Source: an uncultured Bacteroidota bacterium (lineage in GTDB: Bacteria > Bacteroidota > Bacteroidia > Flavobacteriales > Flavobacteriaceae). Taken from it: a DNA stretch of 64,000 bases. How positions within the stretch are numbered: position 1 is the stretch's first letter; each line of letters begins with the position of its first letter. Shown here one piece after another: positions 2,528 to 7,193 of the stretch. The stretch is taken from positions 1 through 64,000 of the forward strand of contig CABZAE010000001.1 in the NCBI GenBank assembly GCA_902523635.1, written 5' to 3'. Both the position numbers and the translations under genes were made by a program. The notes under the pieces were generated by a model that was not told the origin of the DNA, ran no database searches, and saw only the letters and a list, made by a program, of their open reading frames with translations.

Positions 2528-3298
2528 ATGAATTTAAAAATAAGTAAACCTCTATGCTTTTTTGATCTTGAAACAACAGGAATTAATGTTTCGTCCGATA
2601 GAATTGTTGAAATATCAGTTTTAAAAATTTATCCAAACGGAAATAAAGAATCAAGAACTTGGCTAGTAAATCCTGGAATTAAAATTCCTCAGGAAGCGAT
2701 TAATGTCCACGGAATATCAAATGAAATGGTTGTTAATGAACCTAATTTTAGTCAGATAGCCCATGAGGTTAAATCAATGATTAATAATTGTGATCTAGCG
2801 GGGTACAACTCTGATAAATTTGACATTCCATTACTTGCTGAGGAGCTCCTTAGGGCTGATATTGATTTTGATATTGATAATATTCACACCATTGATGTTC
2901 AAAATATTTTTCATAAGATGGAACAAAGAACATTAGCCGCAGCCTATAAATATTACTGTGGAAAAATTTTAGATAATGCCCATTCATCAAAAGTCGATAC
3001 TTTAGCTACGTATGAGGTTTTAGAATCTCAATTAAAGAAATACTCTGAGTTGGAAAATGATGTAAAGTTTCTTTCTAATTTTTCCAAGAGAGGAAAAAAT
3101 GTTGACCCTGCAGGATTTATCAAATTAAATGAAAATGAAATCCCATGTTTTTCTTTTGGAAAACATAAAGGTAAAAGCGTTGAACATGTCATGCAGAATG
3201 AGCCCGGTTATTTTGGTTGGATATTAAATGCTGACTTTCCCATGTACACTAAGAAAGTTTTGACAAAATTGAGATTGGAAAAGTTTAATAAAAAATAA
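2528..3298 (+). CDS. DnaQ-like 3'-5' exonuclease
   Basis: FFDLETTGINVSSDRIVEISVLK (ExoI motif), NSDKFDIPLLAEEL; C-terminal FSFGKHKGKSVEHVMQNEPGYFGWIL region. Confidence 0.9.
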   Translation: MNLKISKPLCFFDLETTGINVSSDRIVEISVLKIYPNGNKESRTWLVNPGIKIPQEAINVHGISNEMVVNEPNFSQIAHEVKSMINNCDLAGYNSDKFDIPLLAEELLRADIDFDIDNIHTIDVQNIFHKMEQRTLAAAYKYYCGKILDNAHSSKVDTLATYEVLESQLKKYSELENDVKFLSNFSKRGKNVDPAGFIKLNENEIPCFSFGKHKGKSVEHVMQNEPGYFGWILNADFPMYTKKVLTKLRLEKFNKK

Positions 3299-3303
3299 TA
3301 AAT

Positions 3304-3914
3304 ATGAAAGTTATATGCATTGGGAGAAATTATTTAAAGCACATCAAAGAGTTAAAAAACAAAAAAATGATAGTCCAGTAATTTTTCTCAAACCTGAAAC
3401 TTCAATTATTAAAAAAAATCAACCTTTTTTTATTCCGGATTTTTCTAAAACCATTCATCATGAACTAGAGTTTTTGGTTAAAATCAATAGGGTGGGTAAA
3501 TTCATCTCAGCTGAGTTTGCACACAAATACTATGATGAAATAAGTATAGGGATTGACTTTACAGCTCGGGATGTACAAGACAAATTAAAAATGAGTAGTC
3601 TCCCGTGGGAGAAATCTAAATCTTTTGATGGATCAGCATTGATTGGAAAATGGATTAATAAAAAAAAATTTAAAAATATTAGTAACATCAAATTTCATAT
3701 GACAAATAATGGTAAAGTTGTTCAAAATGGAAATACATCTGAAATGATTTGGAATGTCGATCAATTAATTTCTGATATTTCTAAGTTTTTTACTTTAAAA
3801 ATTGGAGATGTAATTTTCACTGGAACACCAGCTGGAGTTGCTGAAGTTAATGAGGGTGATCATTTGATCGGATTTATGGATGGTGAGGAGCTGTTCAAAT
3901 TGAAAATAAAATAA
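3304..3914 (+). CDS. Fumarylacetoacetate hydrolase family protein, apparent frameshift near nt 3354-3367
   Basis: N-term MKVICIGRNYLKHIKELKNKK is read from ATG 3304 in one frame; the rest (NDSPVIFLKPETSII...GIDFTARDVQDKLK...FTGTPAGV) continues in the -1 frame. The called ORF 3315..3914 starts with a non-homologous MHWEKLFKAHQRVKKQ. Confidence 0.85.
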
Positions 3915-5165
3915 ATGAGGGCTAAGGTTGTAACAATTGGAGACGAAATCCTTATAGGTCAAATTATCGATACAAATTCGGTTTTTATCACCAAACAATT
4001 AATAAAAATTGGAATTGAGGTAAAAAAAATAGTTTCAATCGGAGATACTAAGCAAGAAATATTCAATATGCTTAAAGATTCATGTAATGTTTTCGATTTG
4101 GTAATTTTGACAGGTGGATTAGGTCCTACAAATGATGATATTACCAAAGAAGCTTTTTGTAATTTTTTTGAAGATAAGCTTGTACACAACAAAGATGTCT
4201 TGAATCATATTGAAAACCTTTTTAAAAAATTTAGTGATAACCCTATAAACGAACTTAATAGGGCACAAGCTTTATTGCCTTCACGAGCTACCTTAATTCC
4301 AAACACTTTTGGAACAGCAGCTGGAATGAGCATTCAAAAAGGAAGTACTTTGTATATTTCATTGCCTGGTGTTCCTTTTGAAATGAAGCCCATGATGGAA
4401 AATTTCATTATTCCCGATTTAAAAAAAAAATTTAAATGTCCATTTATTGTTAATAGAACTTTATTGACATATGGAAAGGGTGAAAGTTACATCGCAAAGA
4501 AACTTGTTTCCTTTGAGTCTGAATTACCTTCAAACTTTAAGCTTGCTTATCTTCCAAATTATGGTCGAGTAAGATTAAGATTATCCGCTAAAGGTGAAAA
4601 TAAAAATCGATTAGAAAGTGAAATGGATCATTTGATCAGTAAGTTGTATTCTTTGATTGGGAATATTATCGTTGGCTATGATAACGTCAACCCAATAGAA
4701 TTTGAAATTTCAAAAAAATTAATTGAGATTGGTAAGTCATTATCAACTGCCGAAAGTCTAACAGGTGGTTTATTATCCTCCAGGTTAACATTATTAGCTG
4801 GTGCATCTAAATTTTTTAAGGGATCTATTGTTGCATATGATACTGAAATAAAAAAACAAACACTTGGAATTAATGAAAAAATAATTAATGATCATTCTGT
4901 AGTAAGTAAAGAGGTTGCTAATGAAATGGCACTCAAAGTTAGAAATATGTTGGATACAGACTTCTCAATATCGACAACAGGAAATGCTGGTCCATCAAAA
5001 GGGGATTCTGATGCTGAGATTGGTAACATATTCATATCAATAGCGTCTGAAAATGGTGTAAAGTCATTTGAATTTAATTTTGGTAATAACCGTGAAAAAA
5101 ATATCAATAAAACTGTAAATAAGGCACTAGAACTTTTTTTTCATGAGTTAAACAACAACTATTAA
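3915..5165 (+). CDS. cinA: CinA family nicotinamide-nucleotide amidohydrolase / competence-damage protein
   Basis: MRAKVVTIGDEILIGQIIDTNS, LTGGLGPTNDDITKEA, C-terminal STAESLTGGLLSSRLT. Confidence 0.95.
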   Translation: MRAKVVTIGDEILIGQIIDTNSVFITKQLIKIGIEVKKIVSIGDTKQEIFNMLKDSCNVFDLVILTGGLGPTNDDITKEAFCNFFEDKLVHNKDVLNHIENLFKKFSDNPINELNRAQALLPSRATLIPNTFGTAAGMSIQKGSTLYISLPGVPFEMKPMMENFIIPDLKKKFKCPFIVNRTLLTYGKGESYIAKKLVSFESELPSNFKLAYLPNYGRVRLRLSAKGENKNRLESEMDHLISKLYSLIGNIIVGYDNVNPIEFEISKKLIEIGKSLSTAESLTGGLLSSRLTLLAGASKFFKGSIVAYDTEIKKQTLGINEKIINDHSVVSKEVANEMALKVRNMLDTDFSISTTGNAGPSKGDSDAEIGNIFISIASENGVKSFEFNFGNNREKNINKTVNKALELFFHELNNNY

Positions 5166-5858: not shown

Positions 5859-7193
5859 ATGAAGTTTTTAAAGAAAATTTTTGGTTTAGAAAGAACTCCA
5901 AAGAAAAAATCAGAAAAGTCTGAGATTTCTGATGATCAAAATGAGCAAATTGATGAGAGTTTTAGTAAAAAACAAAAGCTAAAGAAATCAGAAAAGTCTT
6001 TTTCTCTAATTAACAAGAAGCCAAGAAAACCAGACCCTAAGCCAGAACCGGAACCAGAACCGGAACCGGAACCAAAACCAGAGTTGAAACTGGAGTCAGA
6101 ACCGGAACCGGAACCAGAATCGGAACCTGAACCAAAACTGGAGTCAGAACCGGAACCGGAACCAGAATCGGAACCTGAACCAAAACAGGAGTCACAGCCT
6201 GAATTAGAACTAAAAAAAGGTGAATCACCAAAACATACAGAAAAGTCTATTTTCAAAAGATTTTTTTCAAAAGAGAAAAAAGTTTCTTTAGAAAAGGGGT
6301 TAGAAAAAACAAGTACTTCGTTTTTCAATAAAATTTCAAAAGTTCTTATTGGAAAAACTAAAGTTGACGATGAGATTTTAGATGACTTAGAGGATGTGTT
6401 AATATCATCGGATGTTGGAGTTAAAACTACACTTAAAATCATTGATAAAATTGAATCAAGAGTTGCTAAAGAAAAATATATTGGCACACAAGAGTTAGAC
6501 AAAATACTAAATGAAGAAATTATAAATATCATAGCATCGTCCGAAGATCATGAAAAATTTAACCTTTCAAAAAGTAGACCTCATGTAATTTTAGTTGTTG
6601 GTGTAAATGGGGTTGGAAAAACAACATCTATTGGTAAAATGGCGCATTATTTTAAGTCTACAGGCTTAAAAGTTGTTATAGGTGCTGCTGATACTTTTAG
6701 AGCTGCTGCAATTGAACAACTGGAGATTTGGGCTAATAGGGTTGGAGTTGATATTGTAAAGCAAGAAATGGGAAGTGATCCTGCTTCTGTAGCGTATGAC
6801 ACTTTAGCCTCAGCTAAGAAAAAAAATGCAGATGTTGTTTTGATTGATACTGCTGGAAGACTTCACAACAAGGTCAATTTAATGAATGAACTAAGCAAAA
6901 TAAAAAGAGTACTTCAAAAAATACATATTGATGCTCCACAAGAAGTTGTTTTAATTATTGATGGATCAACTGGCCAAAACGCTTTTGAACAGGCTAAACA
7001 ATTTACAAGTGTTACTGAAATTACTTCACTAGCGGTAACAAAATTAGATGGAACTGCCAAAGGAGGAGTTGTTCTTGGAATTTCAGATCAGCTTAATATT
7101 CCAATAAAATTTATTGGAGTTGGTGAGGGAATTGAAGATTTACAATTGTTTGATAAAAAAGCATTTGTTGATTCATTTTTTAAGAGAATATAA
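5859..7193 (+). CDS. ftsY: Signal recognition particle receptor FtsY with a Pro/Glu-repeat N-terminal region
   Basis: NG GTPase motifs [44 protein letters not shown]. Confidence 0.96.
6087..6182 (+). repeat. Exact 2 x 48-bp tandem repeat inside ftsY encoding [16 protein letters not shown]
   Basis: aaactggagtcagaaccggaaccggaaccagaatcggaacctgaacca occurs at 6087-6134 and 6135-6182, within a longer degenerate PE-rich tract (~6030-6210). Confidence 0.9.

Follow-up and report, generated by a model that had tools for sequence, protein, structure and literature searches.

The gene considered here is of the type that encodes YcgM of E. coli and the acylpyruvase FAHD1. In human FAHD1, lid closure moves a His30-Glu33 dyad into competent position (PMC8398924). 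To judge from alignment and the H-x-x-E spacing, this dyad probably lies in the FAHD1 segment GRNYADHVREM. Two other published observations bear on genes whose frame breaks in an A-rich tract. First, selection against slippage is evident at a run length of nine in many bacterial genomes, with the effective length differing by organism (PMC1088944). Second, the heptamer A_AAA_AAC is among the most shifty sites for mammalian ribosomes, and in E. coli it is much less shift-prone than A_AAA_AAG (PMC5009743).

The window, the whole stretch of 64,000 nucleotides analysed here (C1:1-64000), belongs to an assembly of 1.2 Mb in 43 contigs that is 62% complete. The GC content of its genome is 31%, and the named relatives closest to it are marine MAGs classified under Flavobacteriaceae, Flavobacteriales or 'Cryomorphaceae'. 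Very probably, what was an ordinary FAHD1/YcgM-type gene for an FAH-superfamily enzyme, in an AT-rich marine Flavobacteriaceae genome, has lost one A of eight. The step from A8 to A7 would reflect replication slippage in the population that was sampled, or else a consensus error in the homopolymer; it would be private to this genome and recent, with no programmed recoding involved.

The split gene and its surroundings

Both pieces of the gene lie on the forward strand. The zero-frame piece (3304-3381) consists of 25 codons and a TAA at 3379-3381; its FAHD1/YcgM-type start, encoded from the ATG at 3304, is MKVICIGRNYLKHIKELKN, and the entire product reads MKVICIGRNYLKHIKELKNKKMIVQ. An earlier note on this DNA had given the same reading and stop, accurately, and had recognised a conserved FAH-family start in it. 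The comparison bears this out: the piece aligns to YcgM and FAHD1, carries the GRNY...H-x-x-E segment (GRNYLKHIKEL, aligned with GRNYADHVREM of FAHD1), and has a score of 66 where shuffles do not exceed 25, which puts the split gene far beyond chance.

The remainder of the FAA_hydrolase domain is found in the -1 frame, as the note had also claimed, in an ORF at 3315-3914 that begins MHWEKLFKAHQRVKKQKNDSPVIFLKPETS. Its match to PF01557 (6e-43) fits a FAHD1/YcgM-like member of the FAH superfamily. The first ~13 residues of this ORF, to about 3353, are non-homologous and lie outside the real protein, whose true start is in the other frame. An in-frame ATG at 3315 could in principle allow this ORF to be translated independently, as a new N-terminal variant. 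However, such a product would be without GRNY...H-x-x-E and the ORF alone would give an incomplete enzyme. We rejected this extremely improbable alternative on the finding that MHWEKLFKAHQRV, those same first residues, matches nothing in relatives. The segment that probably bears the dyad is in the zero-frame piece and therefore neither ORF alone encodes the full enzyme. Here the GRNY...H-x-x-E residues are encoded out of frame with the FAA_hydrolase domain; in all relatives they are in frame with it.

The gene is flanked on the same strand by a DnaQ/ExoX-like exonuclease gene upstream (2528-3298) and by cinA downstream (3915-5165). This gene order is conserved: exonuclease, FAH and CinA follow one another in 9 of the 10 relatives checked for the exonuclease, and in the tenth FAH and CinA alone were found on the stretch. 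A more distant FAA_hydrolase paralogue, intact, is present on contig C5 of the same genome. Further downstream in the window, the N-terminal region of an FtsY-like ORF (5859-7193) contains an extended Pro-Glu repeat (PEPEPEP...), at 5930-6260. This repeat is mirrored on the minus strand by an antisense ORF (5936-6532) of 198 aa, rich in Ser-Gly repeats and probably spurious.

The heptamer at the junction

The two frames meet at an A6-C-A7 tract: the six As occupy 3354-3359, the single C is position 3360, and the seven As span 3361-3367. Read in the zero frame, the codons TTA (3352), AAA (3355) and AAC (3358), for Leu-Lys-Asn, place A_AAA_AAC (3354-3360) in phase as an X_XXY_YYZ heptamer, and the earlier note had described both the phase and the following A7 correctly. 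Its emphasis on the heptamer as a notable feature did not survive a survey of the genome. In 770 kb of it, 620 of 730 ORFs contain an in-phase A_AAA_AAN and 179 of the 730 contain A_AAA_AAC itself; ORFs across the surveyed 812 kb hold 218 in-phase A_AAA_AAC sites. An in-phase A_AAA_AAN inside the run or at most 15 nt upstream accompanies every coding-strand A run of at least 8 (674/674) and 617 of 943 A7 runs. The heptamer at the junction follows from the AT-richness of the genome, and we judge its position at 3354-3360 coincidental, part of the genome background. Nearly every poly-A indel in this genome would present itself as a frame break at a slippery heptamer. Since most ORFs and every A run of 8 or longer come with such a heptamer, a claim of recoding must rest on conservation.

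Programmed -1 ribosomal frameshifting at A_AAA_AAC would account for a heptamer in the right phase followed by a protein that continues in the -1 frame. Several observations make it scarcely credible. The same kind of heptamer occurs in most ORFs, and A_AAA_AAC is the less shift-prone form in E. coli. Translation in the zero frame would yield a fragment of 25 residues for which no use is evident. A stimulatory stem-loop 3' of the heptamer was sought by nested RNA folds, which were no better than shuffles (z = +0.42). Finally, none of the relatives compared has the frame break. With neither conservation nor a stimulatory structure, we rejected programmed frameshifting. The sole Rfam match, to lactis-plasmid RNA, reached 25 bits against a cut-off of 70 and was dismissed as chance.

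Orthologues and selection

In relatives, the gene occupies a single unbroken frame at 109 of 109 loci (about 100 distinct genomes), running from K-(I/L)-(I/V)-C-(I/V)-G-x-N-Y into the FAA_hydrolase domain. A break with its shift site, as orthologues of a programmed -1 frameshifting gene would share it, thus occurs at 0 of the 109 loci. These loci include those of all 16 other congeneric genomes with the gene, a count that excludes five incomplete congeners giving no match for it. The closest relative (genome G003, locus L004; 68-69% aa identity) is collinear with the window except that its junction, TTAAATAATAAAAAAAATAATAG, has A8 where the window's, TTAAAAAACAAAAAAATGATAG, has A7. The break is therefore unique, and the one-A contraction private to the window's genome, among the genomes searched. 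The missing A probably belongs in the second run (3361-3367), a placement favoured by the wide conservation of the Asn in EL-x-N.

The heptamer itself comes and goes among these intact genes. Four of them (L005, L006, L011 and L013) have A_AAA_AAT at the same Leu-Lys-Asn codons; L004 is without A_AAA_AAC, and its A8 run holds an in-phase A_AAA_AAT. In intact congeners such as L007, L009 and L015, an in-phase slippery heptamer is absent from the junction point. The earlier note had looked to relatives for a conserved tract and break, and had taken uninterrupted genes without a slippery tract as evidence against its proposal; these three are such genes. Conservation in relatives gives no support for recoding at the FAH gene.

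Comparison with L004 gives pN 0.126 and pS 0.632 for the N-terminal piece, values that are rough with 57 bases compared, and pN 0.155 and pS 0.618 for the C-terminal piece. Both pieces look to be under purifying selection, similar across the break, and a second lesion in the gene is absent. Together these observations suggest that the break is recent, erroneous or tolerated; from the conserved codons on either side we infer that it is recent.

If the gene is genuinely frameshifted, some full-length enzyme might be restored on A6-C-A7 by slippage during transcription or by sliding of ribosomes that is not programmed. The conserved codons on either side, the A-rich junction and the full-length transcripts known from frameshifted genes of AT-rich endosymbionts (PMC3017870) are consistent with this. 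However, transcriptional slippage is expected on A/T runs of about 9 or more, and the runs here are just 6 and 7 with a C between them; the break is common to no relative; and nearly 200 in-frame coding A/T runs of at least 9 in orthologous ORFs imply that this genome either tolerates slippage or experiences it weakly. We consider such restoration unsupported and very unlikely. By analogy with insect endosymbionts, a free-living marine flavobacterium might tolerate a fixed homopolymer break, with polymerase or ribosome slippage restoring enough product, a scenario to which we give very little weight.

Frame breaks elsewhere in the genome

How often frames are broken in this assembly was assessed by comparing ORFs of the congener G016 with 812 kb of the window's genome and looking for orthologues whose ends carry on in a different frame, a procedure that short terminal pieces may escape. 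Three candidates were flagged among 669 orthologue matches, and the FAH gene was the sole verified break. At C2:102458 the frame is intact in the window's genome and broken in G016; at C2:32400 there is no break, and the surplus residues come from an upstream extension of the G016 ORF. Run in reverse, the comparison picked out 45 places in G016; many of these are evident breaks, which shows that the procedure can find them.

The orthologous ORFs of the window's genome contain 1,947 A/T runs of at least 7. A sole break among 669 matches despite so many runs indicates that errors and mutations of this kind are both infrequent here; the assembly is clean, and the idea that it is error-ridden was rejected. 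One contraction in some 1,900 runs is unremarkable: a rare mistake in the consensus would explain it, and so would a rare genuine mutation. Both remain candidates for the missing A. Of the four options in the earlier note, mutation and assembly error are the two that stand, and programmed frameshifting and transcriptional slippage lose most of their weight on comparison with relatives. Its statement that sequence alone cannot separate the options holds between mutation and assembly error; recoding is weakened by comparative sequence.

Two side observations concern the genomes compared. Some 40 apparent frame breaks in G016 (L151-L232) affect orthologues whose copies in the window's genome are intact; G016 therefore appears rich in indels and makes a poor reference for claims about frames. 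In addition, the orthologous ORFs of the window's genome (G000) include 193 A/T runs of 9-11 (162 of 9, 29 of 10 and 2 of 11), and long A/T runs are therefore tolerated in the coding sequence of this apparently free-living marine bacterium.

With regard to known systems, the locus has an in-phase A-rich heptamer in common with dnaX-type programmed -1 frameshifting. It differs in having A_AAA_AAC rather than A_AAA_AAG, in showing no stimulatory structure or conservation, and in its short product without evident use. The poly-A frameshifts of Blochmannia and other AT-rich endosymbionts likewise arise from a single-base indel in an A run and leave the codons otherwise conserved (PMC3017870); in the window the A runs have short lengths of 6 and 7, no relative shares the break, and the surveyed part of the genome holds just this one case. 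YcgM (PDB 1nr9) and FAHD1 (PDB 6fog) are homologous over their full length to both pieces together, including GSNY/GRNY...H-x-x-E, in a comparison whose query, a hand-made hybrid of the L004 N-terminus and the window's downstream residues, serves only to place conserved residues. Both are encoded in a single frame, whereas the window's copy is split by one base.
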